In this document: positions 24,989 through 33,169 of the stretch, one piece after another
Numbering within the stretch: position 1 is the first letter of the stretch
Layout: each line of letters starts with the position of its first letter
Assembly: GCA_018433345.1 (NCBI GenBank)
Contig: JAHDRK010000009.1
Span: 1 to 40,168 of the forward strand
From: Syntrophobacterales bacterium
Lineage (GTDB): Bacteria; Desulfobacterota; Syntrophia; Syntrophales; UBA2210
DNA length: 40,168 nt
Direction of reading: 5' to 3'
Position numbers and translations under genes: made by a program
Notes under the pieces: model-generated
What the model was told of the DNA's origin: nothing
The model's input: the letters and a program-made list of their open reading frames with translations, nothing else
The model's database searches: none

Positions 24989-25786
24989 ATGGATTCCTTT
25001 ATCGTTGCGACCTTCAACGTCAATTCGATCCGTTCGCGTCTCCACGTGGTGATCCCATGGCTTGAGGCGAATCGTCCCCGTTTTTTCTGTATGCAGGAGA
25101 CAAAGGTGTCGGACGATGAATTCCCCCTGTCCCCCTTCGAAGACCAGGGGTATCACGTTGTCTTCAGGGGTGAAAAACGTTACAACGGTGTGGCCGTGGC
25201 ATCTCTCGAAAAGCCCGGGCACTTTTCGGCGGGTTTCGATGACGGGGAACCTCCCGATGAAGACAGACTGATCTGCGCCCGTTACGACGACCTCACGATT
25301 CTGAATATCTATGCGCCTCAGGGAAGAAGCAGGGATCACGAACAGTTCCGGTACAAGCTCCGGTGGTTCGAACGCCTGTTGATGTATCTGGAGAGAAATC
25401 ATTCCCCCGATGAACCCCTCTTGTGTTGCGGCGATCTGAACATCGCCCCGGAGGAAATAGACGTGCACGATCCGAAACGGCTGTTGGGGCACGTGGATTT
25501 CAATCCCGAGGTCTGGGAGGCCTTCGACCGTCTCAAGGCCTGGGGTCTGGAGGACGTTTTCCGCAGGCACCATCCGGGAGAGCCCGGCCGGTATACCTTT
25601 TTTGATTACCGTGTTCCCGATTCACTTGGCCGAGGGCTTGGGTGGCGCATCGACCATATCTTGGCCACCCCGCCGTTGAGTTCCCGTTCGGCGGACAGTT
25701 TTATCGATCTGGAGACGAGGGCCGCGGAAAGACCCTCGGATCACGCAGTCTTGGCGGCGCGCTTCCACTGGTGCTGTGACGGATGA
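24989..25786 (+). CDS. xthA: Exodeoxyribonuclease III (AP endonuclease)
   Basis: A 265-residue enzyme of the exonuclease III/AP endonuclease family, which cuts DNA at abasic sites and degrades 3' ends in base excision repair. Landmarks in order: [11 protein letters not shown] (about residues 7-17), the metal ligand Glu in CMQETK (E37), YAPQGR (about 109-114), [11 protein letters not shown] with catalytic Asp and Asn (about 151-161), RIDHILAT, and the final SDHAVL with the catalytic His (about 252-257). The ATG at 24989 has GGGAGCAGG upstream and is preferred to an earlier GTG. It is followed by an unknown gene 20 bases on, probably cotranscribed. Confidence 0.93.
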
Positions 25787-25805
25787 CCACAAAAAGGGAA
25801 CCGAG

Positions 25806-26234
25806 ATGGAAGCGGGCAAGCGGACTGACAGCCGGTACGACATGAATCGGCAGGTAAAGATGATTCTCGTCCGCCATGGAGTGGACCTTACATTGTTGAA
25901 GTGGTCAAGCTCCAGGTCAACGGTTAATTTCTACGGCATGTTGAAAAAAGATCAAAATAAAGACTTTACAGTAACGGAGCTGGAGGGCCTCGTTAAAGAG
26001 CTTGTCCACGTGCCCCGTGCTCCGCGGCTCAATTTCAACCTCGACAACTGGTACATCTCTTCCGAATCGGGGTCATGGAAGGTATCGAAAAGGAAAATGC
26101 CGGTCTCCGGAGGGGGTGTCGAAGATCGGCCCAGAACGGTATTCATCCGAAGAACGGAAAAAGTAGAGGATATTTTGAGAGAGATACGGGAAAGAAAGGA
26201 ATCACAGAGGAGCGCGAAAAGGCCCGGCACGTAG
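25806..26234 (+). CDS. Unknown protein with BON-like repeat pattern
   Basis: A 142-residue protein I do not recognise. It has no signal peptide or membrane segment. Residues about 15-90 alternate beta strands and a helix: VNFYGMLKK, then a TVTELEGLVKELVHVPRAPRLNFNLDNWYI helix-strand unit (trimmed), reminiscent of BON-like domains but without certain similarity. The C-terminus is highly charged. The ATG at 25806 follows AAGGGA. It lies directly after xthA and the strand and spacing suggest an operon. Its role is unknown. Confidence 0.55.
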   Translation: MEAGKRTDSRYDMNRQVKMILVRHGVDLTLLKWSSSRSTVNFYGMLKKDQNKDFTVTELEGLVKELVHVPRAPRLNFNLDNWYISSESGSWKVSKRKMPVSGGGVEDRPRTVFIRRTEKVEDILREIRERKESQRSAKRPGT

Positions 26235-26303: not shown

Positions 26304-27779
26304 TCAAGGCTTGTTCTCTTTTCCGCTCTCTTTACCCTCTTCGTCGGCCTTGGCCGAGACATTGATTGTTACCGTTACAACCGGCGGTTTACGGTCGGCA
26401 AAGATGATGTTTGGCGGTAGTATCAGGCTAGGCGTAAGGCGAGTCGAGGCCTGTATGGAATCCAGCAAAATGGGTTCCGTGAGGATCTTGATATCCTTCA
26501 TATTTTGGCCCGTAGTCAGTATCTTGACCGTTTCCGGGCTCACTTCAATCCCTTCCAGGACGAGGCCTTCCTTCAGTGACCCCGTGGTTTGGACCTGCAC
26601 GGGAACTTCCCGGGGGGTCAGCTCGTGGGCCGTCAGGGTGATTGAATCCGGCAGGATGCCCACGACGGTAAGGTTGGAGGGATGCTCCACGTTGCGAGGG
26701 GTCAAGGGAATTTCCTGTTTTCCTTCCCGAATGTTCGACATGTCCACCGTCAGGCGCAGTGTGCTTTTGTCAAAGAGATCGAAGGCCTGTTTAGATCCCA
26801 TGAGCGAAATGGTGGCCTCCCGCGGCTCCTGGCTTTCGATTATCCAGTCGGCGGGAAGATTGCGGTATGTCACCGGGATAGTGAAATCCCGGCGGATCGT
26901 CTCGGTCTCGAAACCGAACGCAAGCCACAGAATGGCCGCCAGTCCTACGGCTATCCCCTTTTCCCAGGAGTTGGAACGCAGCCACGAGAAGCTTTTTCCC
27001 CGCTCTTTCTCGGGAGACCGCAACCTATAGAAACGGTCTATTTCCTCCTCAATATCCTCGAGCTTTTCCAGAGTTCGGATGTCACCGTTCATGGCGACCG
27101 AAATGGTGCCCCGTTCCTCGGAGACGACAATGCAAAGGGCGTCCGTCAGTTCGGAAAGCCCTAGGGCGGCGGTGTGTCGAAGCCCCAAGCCTGCCGCCTT
27201 GGTGCTGTTTCGTGAGAGGGGGAGATGGCAGCCGAAGCGGGTCACCCGTTCCCCATCGATAATGACGGCCCCGTCGTGACCAGCCGAGTGGGGGTCGAAA
27301 ATGCTTTCAATGAGAGCCGTGCTCACCTTTCCGTCCAGGGGGATTCCGCCCGCCAGGTGGCGTTCCAGGGGGTCCTTCCCCTTTATTATAATCAGCGCCC
27401 CCCGCCGTTGCCGTGCGAGCCTCATGATCGCCGTTACAAGAGGTTCGGTGGGTGATTCCAGGAGTTTAGGGCTACCCTTCCCCGGCCGCCAGATGGCGAG
27501 GCGTTCAAAGAATCGCCGGAGATCTTCCTGGAAGATAATGACGATCGCTATGAGGAAAATGGCAAAAAATCCCCGTAGGACATATTCAGTGAGATACATG
27601 TGGAAGAAACGGGCCGCGGTGTAAACGACACTGAGGATGATGATTCCTATAAAAACGAACCGGGATGCGGTTTTCTTCAGCCAGATGAGCACACCATAGA
27701 TCAGGACAGCGATGACACCTATGTCCAGGATGTCTGAAACGCGGATACTGTTTAAAAGGTGAAGCAGTTGTTCTTTCAT
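26304..27779 (-). CDS. cdaA: Diadenylate cyclase (CdaA-type) fused to YbbR-like domains
   Basis: A 491-residue fusion. Three N-terminal membrane helices (about residues 17-36, 41-59 and 67-84) lead into a DAC domain with the catalytic DGA (169-171) and RHT (201-203) motifs that make c-di-AMP from two ATP. A fourth membrane segment (about 273-291) is followed by about 190 residues of YbbR/CdaR-like repeats outside the cytoplasm. In Firmicutes these parts are normally separate, adjacent proteins (CdaA and its regulator CdaR); here they are one chain, which may make the cyclase sense the cell envelope directly. The ATG has GAGGG upstream and a good promoter 28-56 bases away. Divergent from the DHH phosphoesterase. 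Confidence 0.87.
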   Translation of the reverse strand: MKEQLLHLLNSIRVSDILDIGVIAVLIYGVLIWLKKTASRFVFIGIIILSVVYTAARFFHMYLTEYVLRGFFAIFLIAIVIIFQEDLRRFFERLAIWRPGKGSPKLLESPTEPLVTAIMRLARQRRGALIIIKGKDPLERHLAGGIPLDGKVSTALIESIFDPHSAGHDGAVIIDGERVTRFGCHLPLSRNSTKAAGLGLRHTAALGLSELTDALCIVVSEERGTISVAMNGDIRTLEKLEDIEEEIDRFYRLRSPEKERGKSFSWLRSNSWEKGIAVGLAAILWLAFGFETETIRRDFTIPVTYRNLPADWIIESQEPREATISLMGSKQAFDLFDKSTLRLTVDMSNIREGKQEIPLTPRNVEHPSNLTVVGILPDSITLTAHELTPREVPVQVQTTGSLKEGLVLEGIEVSPETVKILTTGQNMKDIKILTEPILLDSIQASTRLTPSLILPPNIIFADRKPPVVTVTINVSAKADEEGKESGKENKP

Positions 27780-27806
27780 CGCCGGCCCTCTTTCTTCGCC
27801 GTTCAC

Positions 27807-27835
27807 AGTATGCAACACGGCGCCGCGGTTGACAA
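27807..27835 (-). promoter_or_regulatory. Predicted promoter of the cyclase-YbbR gene
   Basis: On the minus strand TTGTCA (27830-27835) and CATACT (27807-27812) are separated by exactly 17 bases. The predicted start near 27800 gives a leader of about 20 bases to the ATG at 27779. It supports that ATG over the longer frame, whose first codon lies upstream of the promoter. Confidence 0.55.
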
Positions 27836-28021
27836 ATAAAAAATAATGAAAGCTTGTAATGCCTTTCACTGTCTGATCGATAGGATCTGCATGCTTCGTC
27901 CCGCCCCCATCGAGGGGTTACCCCTGTGGGATCTTTAGGGGAAACGGCGGGAAGATGCCGTTCGGGTTCCCGACAGCTCCCATTATCTTTGAAACTCATC
28001 ATTTTTTGGATTGATTGCGAG
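27836..28021. other. Structured intergenic stretch between divergent c-di-AMP genes
   Basis: This is the core of the only gap over 300 bases (27780-28089). Read on the plus strand it holds AGGGG-TTA-CCCCT (27913-27925), a 6-bp stem AACGGC/GCCGTT (27943-27948 with 27957-27962) and TCGG/CCGA (27962-27965 with 27970-27973). The first stem competes with an alternative, CCCC/GGGG (27905-27908 with 27914-27917). Alternative pairing is a feature of regulatory RNA, but predicted promoters flank the region on the outside, so it may act as DNA. No known riboswitch consensus was recognised. Confidence 0.35.
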
Positions 28022-28050
28022 TTGCTTTGGGGGGGCACTTTGGTTAAGAT
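28022..28050 (+). promoter_or_regulatory. Weak predicted promoter of the DHH phosphoesterase gene
   Basis: TTGCTT (28022-28027) and TAAGAT (28045-28050) are separated by 17 bases, placing transcription start near 28057, about 33 bases before the ATG. Both hexamers are imperfect. Confidence 0.35.
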
Positions 28051-28089
28051 ACCGTGACTGTTCGAAAAAGAAAAAAGGGAGAATATATT

Positions 28090-29148
28090 ATGAACCAGGA
28101 TTCCGGAGCGCCGGTACATCCTGCCCGTGTTCTTCTCGAGTACGCGGCCGATAAACGCTCCATTCTCATTGTCTGCCATAACAACCCCGATCCTGATTCC
28201 ATGGCCGCCGCACAAGCCTTGAAACACCTCTTTTTTTTGAAGTTGCCGAGGAGGAAGGTGGTCATCGCCTACGGAGGAATCGTGGGAAGGGCCGAAAACC
28301 GCCAGATGATGCGTCGCCTGAAAATCGAGATGGAAAACATCAATGATATTGATTTCAAGTCCTTTTCTCTTGTTTGTCTTGTGGACAGTCAACCACGTAC
28401 AGGCAACAGCGACATCCCCCGCTCAGTGATTCCCCAGGTGGTGATCGATCATCACCCTGCAAGGTCTTTCACGAAGAAGTGCGCCTTTGTGGATATACGG
28501 CCCGATTACGGCAGTTCGTCAACGATCATTCTGGAATATCTTCGCGAACTGGATCTTCCCGTCGATCGTAAGCTGGCCACCGCCCTCTTTTATGGATTAA
28601 AAACCGACACGGGTGGGTTTTCAAGGTCTCTTAGCAAGGCGGATCTGGAGGCGTTGAACTATCTTTCGCCACGCATAGCGCCGCGGACACTGGGGTTGAT
28701 CGAGAATCCCCCCGTCCCCAAGGGTTATTACCTGAAATACGTGGAGGCGATCGAGCAGGCGAAACAGTACCAGGATGTAATCGTCACTGACATGGGTAAG
28801 CTGAACAATCCCGATATGGTGGCTGAACTGGCGGATTTCCTTCTTCGCATGGAGACCATACGGTGGGTGCTCGCCATGGGGGAATACAAAGACGAGCTGA
28901 TCCTTTCTGTCCGGACATCACGGCGCGGATGGTGGGCTGGGAAAATAGCCCTCCGGGTTCTGCGTGGACTGGGGACGGGTGGAGGTCACGAGCGGGCCGC
29001 CGGTGGAAAAGTTTCCTTCAATGAGGTGTCTCCTGAAGAACGGCGCAAGATACGGGATCGCGTGGCAGAACGTTTTCTTAAAATTGTGGGGGTCGGGGGC
29101 GTGGAAGGTAAACCCCTTTTCCCCCTCCGATCCCAGGATCAACCTTGA
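28090..29148 (+). CDS. DHH/DHHA1 phosphoesterase (NrnA/GdpP-type)
   Basis: A 352-residue cytoplasmic phosphoesterase of the DHH superfamily. Motif I is HNNPDPDSMA (H30 to A39), motif II VDS (D99), motif III DHH (120-122), and the C-terminal DHHA1 domain has GGGHERAAGG (about 296-305). Members hydrolyse c-di-AMP, pApA or short oligonucleotides; no PAS or GGDEF domain is present, so it resembles DhhP/NrnA rather than GdpP. It is divergent from the c-di-AMP cyclase, suggesting messenger breakdown. The ATG has AAGGGAG upstream; an earlier GTG is less likely. It is followed 23 bases on by a glycosyltransferase gene. Confidence 0.82.
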   Translation: MNQDSGAPVHPARVLLEYAADKRSILIVCHNNPDPDSMAAAQALKHLFFLKLPRRKVVIAYGGIVGRAENRQMMRRLKIEMENINDIDFKSFSLVCLVDSQPRTGNSDIPRSVIPQVVIDHHPARSFTKKCAFVDIRPDYGSSSTIILEYLRELDLPVDRKLATALFYGLKTDTGGFSRSLSKADLEALNYLSPRIAPRTLGLIENPPVPKGYYLKYVEAIEQAKQYQDVIVTDMGKLNNPDMVAELADFLLRMETIRWVLAMGEYKDELILSVRTSRRGWWAGKIALRVLRGLGTGGGHERAAGGKVSFNEVSPEERRKIRDRVAERFLKIVGVGGVEGKPLFPLRSQDQP

Positions 29149-29171
29149 AGAGAAATGCGGGGACTATAATC

Positions 29172-30410
29172 ATGAAAATATTGATGTTCGGCTGGGAATT
29201 TCCTCCTTCCATCAGCGGCGGTCTGGGGACCGCCTGCCGGGTATTAACGGAGGGACTTGTGGGGGAAGGTACCGAGATCGTCTTTGTCGTCCCCGGGGCG
29301 TCCGTCCCTGTTGCACTCGATGGCTTAACAATGATCGACGCCTCCCGCCTGTATTTCGATGGGGAATGTACGATGCCGGAGTGTCTGCCGGACCGTTCCT
29401 TTGGGTTGCCTTTGACTCCCTATCTGACACTTGAGGGCGGTCAAGGATTTCTTCCTGCTTTGGGGAACATGGGGGAGAACGATAATCATTACGCCCATGA
29501 CCTGTATGACGTGGTGTCCCGCTACGCGGGGTGCGCGAGGCGAATAGCGCGTGAGGATTCTTTCGACGTTATAGTTACTCACGACTGGATGGCGGTTCCC
29601 GCCGGTCTGGCGGCCCGGGAAGAATCGGGTCGACCGCTGGTGGTTCACATCCACTCACTTGAATCGGATAGAAGTCCCCTGCGGATCAATGAATACATTT
29701 ACGGCGTGGAAAGGTCGGGCATGCACGAGGCAGACCGGGTTATCGCCGTCAGTTACTACACGAAGAAAAAAATCATGGATCAATACGATGTCCCGGAAAG
29801 TAAGATAACGGTCATTCATAACGCGGCGCCGTATCACCCGGCGGGGGCGGCGCCGGCTCTCCGGCGTCATCGTGGTAAAATTGTTCTCTTTCTCGGCAGG
29901 GTCACCCGGCAGAAGGGACCCGATTTTTTCGCTGAGGCCGCCGAGAGGGTGTTGTCCATGGATCCGGCAGTGCGCTTTATAATGGCTGGATCGGGGGAGA
30001 TGCTTCCTACGATCCGGGACCGTGTTGAGGCGGCCGGAATAGCGGATAGATTCGAATTCACGGGATTTCTGTCGGGGGAGGAAGTGACCCGGGTTTTTGC
30101 TCGGAGTGATATTTACGTCATGCCGAGCCTTTCGGAACCCTTCGGGATTGCCGCGCTGGAAGCCGTGATTCACGGAATTCCACCCGTCCTTACAAAAGGG
30201 TCGGGTGTGTGTGAGGTGCTGAAGAGTTGTCCCATCGTCGATTATGGAGATGTGGATGCCTTGGCGGAGACCATAATACAAATGCTTTCGGACGAAGAAC
30301 TGCGATTCCGAGTACTTGAGGCCGCGCAGAGAGATATGGCCGGCTTGACCCCGCGGAAACAGGCCCTCGAGTCACTCGCACTCTATCGTTCGCTTATAAA
30401 CGAAGGCTAG
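29172..30410 (+). CDS. GT4-family glycosyltransferase (glycogen synthase-like)
   Basis: A 412-residue GT-B fold transferase. The N-terminal ILMFGWEFPPSISGGLGTACRVL pattern (trimmed, about residues 3-25) with a GGLG loop is typical of glycogen synthase-like and GT4 enzymes; VTHDWMAV (about residue 140) and the acceptor-side HIHSLES follow. The C-terminal donor site has VLFLGRVTRQKGPDFF and SEPFGIAALEA (about 320-330), with the conserved Glu-x7-Glu. The donor is a nucleotide sugar, probably ADP- or UDP-glucose; acceptor unknown. The ATG at 29172 follows GGGGA. It is followed after 59 bases by the GH57-GT5 fusion, a likely partner in glucan metabolism. Confidence 0.8.
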   Translation: MKILMFGWEFPPSISGGLGTACRVLTEGLVGEGTEIVFVVPGASVPVALDGLTMIDASRLYFDGECTMPECLPDRSFGLPLTPYLTLEGGQGFLPALGNMGENDNHYAHDLYDVVSRYAGCARRIAREDSFDVIVTHDWMAVPAGLAAREESGRPLVVHIHSLESDRSPLRINEYIYGVERSGMHEADRVIAVSYYTKKKIMDQYDVPESKITVIHNAAPYHPAGAAPALRRHRGKIVLFLGRVTRQKGPDFFAEAAERVLSMDPAVRFIMAGSGEMLPTIRDRVEAAGIADRFEFTGFLSGEEVTRVFARSDIYVMPSLSEPFGIAALEAVIHGIPPVLTKGSGVCEVLKSCPIVDYGDVDALAETIIQMLSDEELRFRVLEAAQRDMAGLTPRKQALESLALYRSLINEG

Positions 30411-30469: not shown

Positions 30470-33169
30470 ATGCCGCTTGTAACCCTATATTTTCAGATTC
30501 ATCAGCCTTTCAGACTCCATCCCGATAGAGACAAGTTTTTATGGGAAGAGATGAACCGCGACGTGTTCAAAAAGGTGGCGGCCAAGTGTTATCTGCCGGC
30601 CCTCGAGCTTTTTCGCGAGATGGTTGCGGGAGAACCTTCGTTCAAGGTTACCTTCAGTTTTTCCGGGACCTTCCTGGAACAGGCCGAGCTTTACTGCCCC
30701 GATGTCATCAAGGCCCTTCAGCGTCTTTTGGATGCCGGACAGGGGGAACGCGTCGAGTATCTCGATGAAACTTATTACCATTCGCTTACTTCCCTTTTCG
30801 AGGACCCGAAAAAACAAGAATTTCGCGACCAGGTATCGCTCCATCGCGACATGATGCGCAAGATCTTTGGATTGCTGCCCACTTCCTTTAGAAACACGGA
30901 GCTTATGTTTAACAACAACATAGCCGACGCGGTTCATGACATGGGGTATAAGGCCATTCTTTGCGAACAGCGCCGTGACATGTACGAGAAGGGCAACTTG
31001 TCGGTACCGCCTGACTCGGTGTTCAAATCCGTTGAAAACGATCTCGTTGTCATTCCCCGTAACCGTGATCTAAGCGATGACGTGGCCTTTCGGTTTACGC
31101 ACCGGCCGCTCGCCCCCGATGAATACGCCCTAAATATATCCCGTATCGACGGTCCCGCGGTGTTGTTGGGTTATGATTTTGAGCACATCGGCGAACATCT
31201 TTGGGAAGACACGGGAATATTCCAGTTTTGGCGCGAGATTCCACGGGCCTTCGCGAGACAACCCTCAATCGTTCCGGCCGTCCCCACGGAGATAGCCCAA
31301 ATCTTCCGCGACGTGGAATGCCCGCGGGTGGATATTCCGGGCCTTTCCACGTCCTCTTGGGCCGATGCCACGCGGGACACTCACGGCTGGCTGGGGACGA
31401 TGACCCAGTACAGGCTTTTCAAGGACATTGAGCGTCTGGAAGGAGAAGCGAAGCGGGCGGGCGGCGAATTGCTTACGCAGTGGAGACATCTGACAACCTC
31501 GGATCACATCTATTTTCTTCATGAGCGGCTAGGCGAGGATCACACAGTACATTCCTACTTCAACCCCTATGGTGGTTCCATTACCGAAGCCGCCCACGTG
31601 TTGACCCGCAAAATAGACGACTTGGAGCAGGCCCTGCGGCGTTTTGAAGTACTGAAACGTCGAGAGAGGACGACGGTTTTGATTATCGCCCCCGAAACGG
31701 GGCGTTTGCCCGAGCAGATGGGTCCCTTGGCGGCTTATATATCGGGAAAAAGCGGGGGCATGGGCGAGGTGGTTTCCGCTCTTTGTGAAGGGCTCTGTGA
31801 GCGAAACGTGGAGGTTCACCTGGCGACGATCAACCTCAAGAAGCGTTTTCAGGAGGAAAGCGGGATCGACGAAGATCGCTGGCGTGAGATCCGCTACAAC
31901 GTCGATCCCGGCCGTATACATTTGGTGAGCTCGGCGGTCTTTGCGGAGCTGCCTGGAGCCTACGCCGGCAATCCCTTGCTCAACGCCGCGGAGTTCCAGA
32001 AAGCAGTGGTTAACAACATTATCAAGTACGTGCGTGGCAAGAGCCATGGCAATATGATTGTACACAGCCACGACTGGATGACTGGAGGCGTCATATCGGC
32101 CTACGTGAAGTCCCGGGGCATTCCGCTTCTCCATACGGTGCACAACACTTTTACAGGGCACATTCCCCTAGAGATGTTTTTCGGAGTCCATATTGAAGAA
32201 CTGGCGCCCTTTTTATATTTTTCAGAGGATCAGGGGAGGCGCTGTGTAGAAGCCCAAGCCACGGCCATAAAAAATGCCACCATGATTAATTTCGTTGGTA
32301 AGCGGTTTTTGGAAGAGGTGGTAAACGATTATTTCATGGATCAACCCATCATTCCTCCAAGTGTCCGGACGGAAGTGAAGGCTAAGTACGCCGTTGGGGC
32401 CGCCACGGCAATAATCAACGCGCCGTCGCGCGCGATGTATCCGGAAAATTGTCCCCACCTTGTGAGAAACTATGGCCCCGACGCTGACGTGCTGGCGGCG
32501 AAACGCGAAAATCTCCTTGAATTTCAGCGGCGGACCGGGCTCAACGTGAATTCCGACGCAATCCTTTTTTACTGGCCGTCGCGATTGGACCCCTTTCAGA
32601 AGGGGGTGACAATCCTTGAAGAGGTTCTGCTTCGTTTCGCCATAGAAAATCCAGACGTTCAGATAGGCATCGTCGCCGACGGCGTGGGCGGAGATCGGAC
32701 CCACGAGGAAATCCTGGGACGCATAGCATGGGTTTCGGGAGGCAGAATAGCGTACCACCGCTACCGGGAAGACCTTTCGATGCTTGGGTATGCCGCGGCA
32801 AACGATGTTTTTGGTGTGTCCCTCTACGAACCCTGCGGTCAAATCGACCAGGTGGGCAATCTATTTGGTGCCACGGCCACGAACCGCGATACGGGAGGAT
32901 ATCACGACAAGATAAGGGAGCTTCGCCTCAAGGCGGACGGATCGCCCCAGGACGTGGGAAACGGGTTTCTCTTCAGGGATTACGATCCCGGTGGATTGCT
33001 GTTTGGTCTAAACAAGAGCCTCCATTTCCACCGCAAACCGGCCTCTGAGCGGGAGCCGCAGATCAGGCGGATAATGCGGGAGGCGCGGAAAAATTATGAT
33101 CTTGGAACCATGATCGCCAGCTATATAAGCCTCTATGAAACCATCAGCGGAGGAAGGCCGCTGGTATAA
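30470..33169 (+). CDS. GH57 glycosidase fused to GT5-like glycogen synthase
   Basis: An 899-residue two-domain protein. The first about 390 residues are GH57: HQP (11-13), the candidate nucleophile E144 in RNTEL, and the acid D236 in YDFEHIGEH. From about 410 a GT5-like synthase starts (KSGGMGEV near 427, where GT5 proteins have KTGGL) and ends with YEPCGQ (about 786) and a TGGY motif, the donor site of glycogen synthase. GH57 enzymes trim, branch or transfer alpha-glucan and GT5 extends it, so both steps could be in one chain. GT5 synthases usually start with KxGGL at the N-terminus, so the fusion is real by position. The ribosome binding site is GGAGG. It converges with the next gene nine bases on. 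Confidence 0.85.
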   Translation: MPLVTLYFQIHQPFRLHPDRDKFLWEEMNRDVFKKVAAKCYLPALELFREMVAGEPSFKVTFSFSGTFLEQAELYCPDVIKALQRLLDAGQGERVEYLDETYYHSLTSLFEDPKKQEFRDQVSLHRDMMRKIFGLLPTSFRNTELMFNNNIADAVHDMGYKAILCEQRRDMYEKGNLSVPPDSVFKSVENDLVVIPRNRDLSDDVAFRFTHRPLAPDEYALNISRIDGPAVLLGYDFEHIGEHLWEDTGIFQFWREIPRAFARQPSIVPAVPTEIAQIFRDVECPRVDIPGLSTSSWADATRDTHGWLGTMTQYRLFKDIERLEGEAKRAGGELLTQWRHLTTSDHIYFLHERLGEDHTVHSYFNPYGGSITEAAHVLTRKIDDLEQALRRFEVLKRRERTTVLIIAPETGRLPEQMGPLAAYISGKSGGMGEVVSALCEGLCERNVEVHLATINLKKRFQEESGIDEDRWREIRYNVDPGRIHLVSSAVFAELPGAYAGNPLLNAAEFQKAVVNNIIKYVRGKSHGNMIVHSHDWMTGGVISAYVKSRGIPLLHTVHNTFTGHIPLEMFFGVHIEELAPFLYFSEDQGRRCVEAQATAIKNATMINFVGKRFLEEVVNDYFMDQPIIPPSVRTEVKAKYAVGAATAIINAPSRAMYPENCPHLVRNYGPDADVLAAKRENLLEFQRRTGLNVNSDAILFYWPSRLDPFQKGVTILEEVLLRFAIENPDVQIGIVADGVGGDRTHEEILGRIAWVSGGRIAYHRYREDLSMLGYAAANDVFGVSLYEPCGQIDQVGNLFGATATNRDTGGYHDKIRELRLKADGSPQDVGNGFLFRDYDPGGLLFGLNKSLHFHRKPASEREPQIRRIMREARKNYDLGTMIASYISLYETISGGRPLV

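Follow-up and report, generated by a model that had tools for sequence, protein, structure and literature searches.

Is the regulator of a membrane-bound diadenylate cyclase (DAC) ever built into the same polypeptide as the enzyme and, if so, what would the resulting cyclic di-AMP (c-di-AMP) signal control? This question is raised by a 40,168-nucleotide stretch of DNA from a Syntrophobacterales bacterium (assembly GCA_018433345.1, contig JAHDRK010000009.1, positions 1 to 40,168; hereafter ‘the window’), in which a gene joining a CdaA-type cyclase to YbbR (CdaR-type) domains lies divergent from a gene for a DHH-DHHA1 phosphoesterase. The present analysis establishes the architecture of the fused protein, its conservation, its gene pairing and the neighbourhoods in which it is found. 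The explanation that accounts best for the whole, and that is considered moderately probable, is a one-chain CdaA-CdaR cyclase acting with a DHH enzyme for signal breakdown and with Mg2+/osmotic balance as output, the activities being predicted.

Architecture and conservation of the fused cyclase

Positions 26304-27779 of the minus strand form a single unbroken frame of 491 aa, which comprises CdaA_N, DAC, a fourth transmembrane helix (TM4) and two YbbR domains. The frame can be extended to a GTG codon (26304-27869, minus strand, 521 open codons). The ATG at 27779 appears to be the better start because of its ribosome site, AGAAAGAGGG, and because the resulting N-terminus aligns with those of relatives; starting at the GTG at 27869 would lengthen the protein by 30 residues with no counterpart in relatives. 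The features of the gene are as follows.

26304..27779, minus strand: fused diadenylate cyclase (CdaA_N, DAC, TM4 and two YbbR domains), 491 aa (Pfam, alignment, model)
27534..27740, minus strand: CdaA_N, three N-terminal transmembrane helices, residues 14-82 (Pfam, model helices, hydropathy)
27081..27434, minus strand: DAC catalytic domain, residues 116-233 (Pfam, structure match)
27267..27275, minus strand: DGA motif, residues 169-171, with AGH in front instead of PLH (sequence, alignment)
27171..27179, minus strand: RHT motif, residues 201-203, replacing RHR (sequence, alignment)
26907..26969, minus strand: TM4, residues 271-291, the joint of the cyclase and YbbR parts (model helix, alignment of 19 fused proteins)
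26619..26900, minus strand: YbbR domain 1, about residues 294-387, predicted periplasmic (structure match)
26364..26606, minus strand: YbbR domain 2, residues 392-472 (Pfam YbbR, structure match)

Pfam finds CdaA_N, DAC (E 3.2e-37) and YbbR (E 1e-13) in the single chain, with CdaA_N and DAC above cut-off, and the match to the NCBIfam CdaA model (181.5 bits) lies slightly below the cut-off of 188.8. The predicted structure, in which confidence is low for the membrane part and mostly at pLDDT 80-90 for the DAC and YbbR parts, has transmembrane helices at residues 14-35, 41-58, 62-82 and 271-291, a DAC fold at about 111-240, and two β-rich C-terminal domains at 294-387 and 388-476. The DAC model superposes on Bacillus subtilis CdaA with a Z score of 24.8 (2.1 Å over 150 residues, 39% identity; CdaA structures give Z 24-25) and more weakly on DisA (Z 15-16). 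YbbR domain 1 matches the YbbR protein Dhaf_0833 (3lyw; Z 11.6, 1.7 Å over 86 residues) and domain 2 matches 2kxy (Z 8.8). Within TM4, K274 and W285 are invariant across the alignment of 19 fused proteins. The Pfam domains and the one open frame bear out the proposal, made from the sequence alone, that CdaA and YbbR are fused in one chain; moreover, the predicted topology would place the cyclase inside and the YbbR domains outside, in keeping with the suggested link of the cyclase to an extracytoplasmic part.

The same reading had named a missed stop or a frameshift at the joint as one finding that would overturn it. A profile search found the fused protein in 112 of the 149 genomes of the order (76/92 among those of good quality), where nearly all full-length matches are uninterrupted frames of about 470-550 aa, shorter pieces lie mostly at contig ends, and YbbR searches returned almost exclusively fused frames. 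Because the single frame is conserved in these 112 genomes, an error at the joint is refuted. Indeed, there is next to no chance that errors of sequencing or assembly created the fusion, given that the single frame stays open in over 100 genomes and in several phyla, that the TM4 joint aligns, and that third-position G+C content is of coding type across it.

Several known systems share parts of this architecture. In Firmicutes, CdaA (DacA) and CdaR (YbbR) show the same CdaA_N, the same DAC with DGA, and YbbR domains behind a transmembrane helix, but they are two proteins of a cdaA-cdaR-glmM operon, whereas the window has one chain, two YbbR domains and another gene arrangement. CdaA and YbbR are also found together behind Gram-negative envelopes, in Chlamydia (dacA-ybbR) and in Leptospira and Borrelia (cdaA-cdaR), although as separate genes; the operon of the latter two lacks glmM. 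CdaR acts on CdaA via the membrane region, by a mode of control described as unclear (PMC8573169), and co-expression of YbbR strongly raised c-di-AMP in Chlamydia (PMC12422730). This control has been hard to resolve partly since two membrane proteins must be handled, and a natural one-chain CdaA-CdaR provides a fixed-ratio protein for structural work on it. The literature searched contained no description of a CdaA-YbbR fusion; an earlier listing in a 2023 survey of DAC architectures (Galperin; cited in PMC12974146) is possible.

Active-site motifs and distribution of the fused subfamily

The two motifs from which the cyclase had been recognized, DGA and RHT, are both present and differ in what they signify: DGA is standard, and RHT counts as a deviation because DAC enzymes elsewhere carry RHR. 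The third position of this motif was occupied by T (31), A (11), C (2) or S (2) in 46 of 56 fused proteins, whereas RHR was kept in 71 of 74 separate CdaA proteins. Since RHR, the mark of CdaA, is RHT in the window protein, and RHT, RHA, RHC or RHS over most of the fused subfamily, the protein is filed under a variant subfamily and not as a canonical CdaA. The motif pair of this subfamily is xGHDGA with G[LT]RH[TASC], against PLHDGA with GTRHR in separate CdaA; the comparison with Firmicutes CdaA (GTRHR and PLHDGA) likewise gives GxRH[T/A/S/C] and xGHDGA. DGA, R201, H202 and SEE are invariant in the alignment of fused proteins. As the third RHR residue has been lost throughout the clade, the subfamily can serve to test how much of the DAC signature is essential.

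The reading from sequence had placed the module in a Gram-negative context. Such a context is not in itself unusual, as DAC is present in 354 of 395 Desulfobacterota genomes. Outside the order, the best-scoring DAC genes of the phylum are mostly frames of 250-300 aa that correspond to separate CdaA, commonly with a YbbR gene adjacent; inside it, genome G428 has a separate cdaA-cdaR pair in addition to the fused gene. A broader scan covered 84,980 species genomes, from which the 80 best loci, 37 fused and 43 with separate cdaA, were compared. The 37 fused loci among these 80 belong to Syntrophales-type Deltaproteobacteria, Planctomycetota, Nitrospirota, Omnitrophota, Myxococcota, CPR groups and one Acidobacterium. 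In a tree built on the membrane and DAC part, for which sequences were sampled by similarity to the fused query and branch support was moderate, one side of the tree (SH-aLRT 83) holds 50 of the 52 fused proteins and a single unfused CPR sequence. Twenty-four added separate CdaA proteins of Planctomycetota cluster with other classical CdaA, apart from the fused proteins of that phylum, and the Phycisphaerae genome G528 has one fused and one classical gene.

By motif and tree, the fused enzymes make up a cross-phylum DAC subfamily with a motif pair of its own, whose distribution would fit either horizontal spread or an old paralogue. L115 (genome G406) and L079 fall outside the main fused clade and look like separate fusions, though on long branches. 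In addition, four Planctomycetota loci (L185, L195, L192 and L196) encode CdaA with a classical RHR; their frames run to about 680-800 aa and carry a long C-terminal extension that starts with a transmembrane helix; L185/L195 and L192/L196 are probably further separate fusions of CdaA-YbbR type, YbbR being assigned here by position and not by Pfam. The one-chain form and these further, apparently separate fusions suggest that CdaA-CdaR coupling has been selected.

The divergent phosphoesterase and its pairing with the cyclase

The gene facing the cyclase most likely starts at the ATG at 28090 (352 aa) rather than at the GTG at 28054. With these starts, the region between the two genes contains the following features.

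27780..28089, no strand: divergent intergenic region, 310 bp between the cyclase and DHH starts (start choices)
27807..27835, minus strand: sigma-70-like promoter of the cyclase gene, TTGTCA-N17-CATACT (sequence, conserved in close relatives)
28090..29148, plus strand: DHH-DHHA1 phosphoesterase, 352 aa, candidate c-di-AMP/pApA phosphodiesterase (Pfam, motifs, model)
28162..28596, plus strand: DHH domain (Pfam DHH)
28777..29067, plus strand: DHHA1 domain with the GGGH motif (Pfam DHHA1)

As had been read from the sequence, all DHH/DHHA1 motifs are there: Pfam recognizes the enzyme and every metal motif is in place (HNNPDPD, D99, DHH, TDTG and GGGH). The fold and all metal-binding motifs are common to Pde2, Borrelia DhhP, Thermotoga maritima TM1595, the catalytic domain of GdpP, and NrnA; with only about 20% identity to these, and with an IENPPxPxxYY signature, the enzyme belongs to a subfamily of its own. 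The structural model does not separate them, as it scores Z 26.6 against the T. maritima phosphodiesterase, 25.8 against GdpP and 24-25 against NrnA. Against the NCBIfam NrnA model it reaches 39 bits (cut-off 350), and the canonical NrnA of the genome is a different gene, between rbfA and truB. Hydrolysis of c-di-AMP by the predicted enzyme is likely.

The DHH gene recurs beside fused cyclases in several arrangements. In the family to which the window belongs it is divergent from the fused gene, across a gap of 240-485 bp, in 10 genomes, and on the same strand in G468. In G406 it stands in tandem ahead of the fusion that arose separately. It lies directly after the fused gene in Phycisphaerae; before it, with overlapping frames, in Nitrospirota; and 3.6-4.4 kb away in Smithella-like genomes. 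The fetched flanks contained DHH at 9 of 37 fused loci versus none of 43 separate-cdaA loci. Across the order, 103 genomes have both genes, nine the cyclase only, 16 the DHH gene only and 21 neither (Fisher p 3e-9, uncorrected for kinship). A strict tie of the DHH gene to the fused cyclase was considered and rejected: of the 395 genomes of the phylum, 273 carry the subfamily, among them 14 of the 41 that lack DAC, and it is therefore not exclusive to the fused form. It associates with any DAC (259/354 versus 14/41, p 1e-6, the genomes not being independent).

Whether synthesis and breakdown are co-controlled from the one intergenic region, as had been suggested, is answered in part. The divergent partner is kept in the 10 family genomes and the cyclase-side promoter-like element recurs in close relatives, but divergence is conserved in this family only, and elsewhere the genes are tandem or unlinked. 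Only on the cyclase side is a promoter-like element conserved, and it is shared by the window and the three relatives nearest to it but not by more distant members of the family. A shared operator was rejected: the inverted repeats are short and unremarkable, and conservation is limited to the cyclase-side promoter.

The divergent region also contains G+C-rich inverted repeats (27893-27981) with no Rfam match; the matching region in the relatives L033-L035 differs in sequence and is likewise G+C-rich. Among the DHH homologues beside fused cyclases, those of Phycisphaerae (L046, L049 and L064) have TE for TD in motif IV and those of Nitrospirota (L052 and L054) have DQH for DHH, so activity may differ there.

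Further c-di-AMP-related genes lie elsewhere in the genome. A second diadenylate cyclase, of DacZ (archaeal) type, is encoded at L002 1471-2361 (C28), between genes for a ClpB-like ATPase and an RNA polymerase sigma factor. It has the DAC domain and a non-RHR motif (RHI) in common with the fused protein, with a DacZ_P domain in place of the membrane and YbbR parts. A PgpH-type HD protein, the PgpH candidate of the genome, follows phoH. The genome also carries TrkH-TrkA and, at L165 1363-3204 (C61), a Na+/H+ exchanger of 413 aa with, behind it in a different frame, a TrkA_C protein of 151 aa. This last pair looks like the two halves of a CpaA-type antiporter under c-di-AMP control, divided by a split gene or a frameshift, and both it and TrkH-TrkA are candidate c-di-AMP targets.

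Mg2+ and osmotic neighbourhoods and competing explanations

Genes for CorA, MgtE, CNNM or MscS occur in the fetched flanks of 11 of the 37 fused loci versus one of the 43 separate loci (p 0.0009, uncorrected for kinship). In L037, L038, L155, L156 and L163 (all Syntrophales) the fused gene is immediately followed by CorA, MgtE adjoins or is near it in L046, L049, L054, L055, L059, L064 and L065, CNNM is found at L046, L049, L064 and L065, and MscS at L049, L056 and L064 and near L157. Apart from this count, MgtC follows the fused gene in L050; RimK-TrkA_C is encoded at L052 and L054, and an AmiA-like gene lies immediately upstream of the fused gene in L155. In the Desulfobacterota family f38, an orthologue of the DHH gene (about 61% identity) adjoins CorA in two genomes with no DAC nearby, accompanied by MscS in G131 and by a Na/Ca exchanger in G272.

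L217 5670-9207 (G131:C32): DHH orthologue, CorA and MscS (~61% identity)
L218 2789-6309 (G272:C14): DHH orthologue, CorA and Na/Ca exchanger (~61% identity)

Links of this kind have been reported from other organisms. MgtE binds c-di-AMP, and CBS and RCK_C domains often do so (PMC8844918); a Borrelia cdaA mutant carried mutations in MgtE and an N-acetylmuramoyl-L-alanine amidase (PMC8316131); and haloarchaeal dacZ is in an operon with mscS2 (PMC6741144). The repeated presence of Mg2+ transporter and MscS genes beside fused cyclases suggests that c-di-AMP acts on Mg2+/osmotic balance in bacteria where this signal has received little study. Together with the RHx change, these neighbourhoods are the less expected parts of the finding.

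The favoured explanation can be put as a mechanism. Three transmembrane helices would hold the DAC domain in the cytoplasm, and the fourth would lead to the two periplasmic YbbR domains. In DAC enzymes generally, c-di-AMP is made where the active sites of DAC domains pair. Sensing of the state of the envelope or of osmotic conditions most likely falls to the YbbR part, which would pass the signal via TM4 and the CdaA helices; as these shift, so would the way in which DAC domains pair to build the active site, with regulator and enzyme held at 1:1. The DHH-DHHA1 enzyme most likely converts c-di-AMP and/or pApA to AMP and, with PgpH, would remove the signal. Transport of Mg2+ and osmolytes is most likely what the signal governs, with Mg2+ and K+ transport as presumed outputs, because the cyclase gene of relatives adjoins MgtE, CorA, CNNM, MgtC or MscS. 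A bolder form, which is possible rather than probable, is a self-contained, horizontally spread c-di-AMP module for Mg2+/osmotic balance, consisting of an RHx-changed cyclase with built-in CdaR, the DHH enzyme and Mg2+ or mechanosensitive channels, and residing beside a classical CdaA in some hosts (G528).

Several observations weigh against the favoured explanation. The window pair has no adjacent Mg2+ transporter, its neighbours being exodeoxyribonuclease III and glycosyltransferase genes, and no c-di-AMP riboswitch was found by Rfam in the window or the genome, where weak intergenic hits fell far below the cut-offs. The DHH subfamily is present in the 14 DAC-less genomes, the RHx motif departs from RHR, and the coexistence of the DacZ-type cyclase and the PgpH candidate means that the window pair is not the only control. 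A rival explanation is a plain CdaA-CdaR fusion with unchanged function (cell-wall and K+ homeostasis, as in Firmicutes), its Mg2+ and DHH neighbours reflecting a general clustering of envelope and ion genes. The folds and domains are identical in kind to those of the separate proteins, and many fused loci (L039-L043, L047, L048, L053 and L058) lack both DHH and a Mg2+ transporter in their surroundings. This reading is nevertheless unlikely, as fused and separate loci differ in both kinds of neighbour (see the counts above) and unrelated families of Mg2+ transporter stand beside fused genes in different phyla.

The altered active-site residues (RHT, AGHDGA, and L in place of T ahead of RH) could also mark a degenerate enzyme or one with an altered product, such as a binding, non-cyclising sensor. 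That the change is clade-wide would agree with this, as would the loss of activity of Mycobacterium tuberculosis DacA upon changing RHR to AAA (PMC3328451). It is highly improbable, however, given the invariant DGA, R201, H202 and SEE and a DacZ-type cyclase in the same genome that is also non-RHR; DacZ makes c-di-AMP in Haloferax (PMC6741144), the likeness being one of enzyme type. For the DHH enzyme, a role as a nanoRNase or pApA/PAP hydrolase that leaves c-di-AMP to PgpH for the first step would be compatible with the favoured explanation of the cyclase. The nearly equal structure scores, the DAC-less genomes with the subfamily and the PgpH-type protein all speak for it, but a canonical NrnA is already present at the rbfA-truB site and the DHH gene co-occurs with the fused cyclase across the order and is repeatedly adjacent to it; this role is possible, though rather unlikely.

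The remaining neighbours in the window are as follows. On the 3' side of the cyclase gene, and convergent with it, lie genes for a 152-aa protein without assigned function and then for exodeoxyribonuclease III; glmM is not directly downstream. The 152-aa protein (25776-26234, plus strand) has no Pfam or NCBIfam match and keeps its place next to the genes for the fused cyclase and exodeoxyribonuclease III in the close relatives L033 and L035. On the other side, an open reading frame for a GT4 glycosyltransferase (29145-30410, plus strand) overlaps the DHH gene by 4 bp and may be co-transcribed with it, and is followed by a gene for an 899-aa fusion of GH57 with a starch-synthase-type glycosyltransferase (30470-33169, plus strand).

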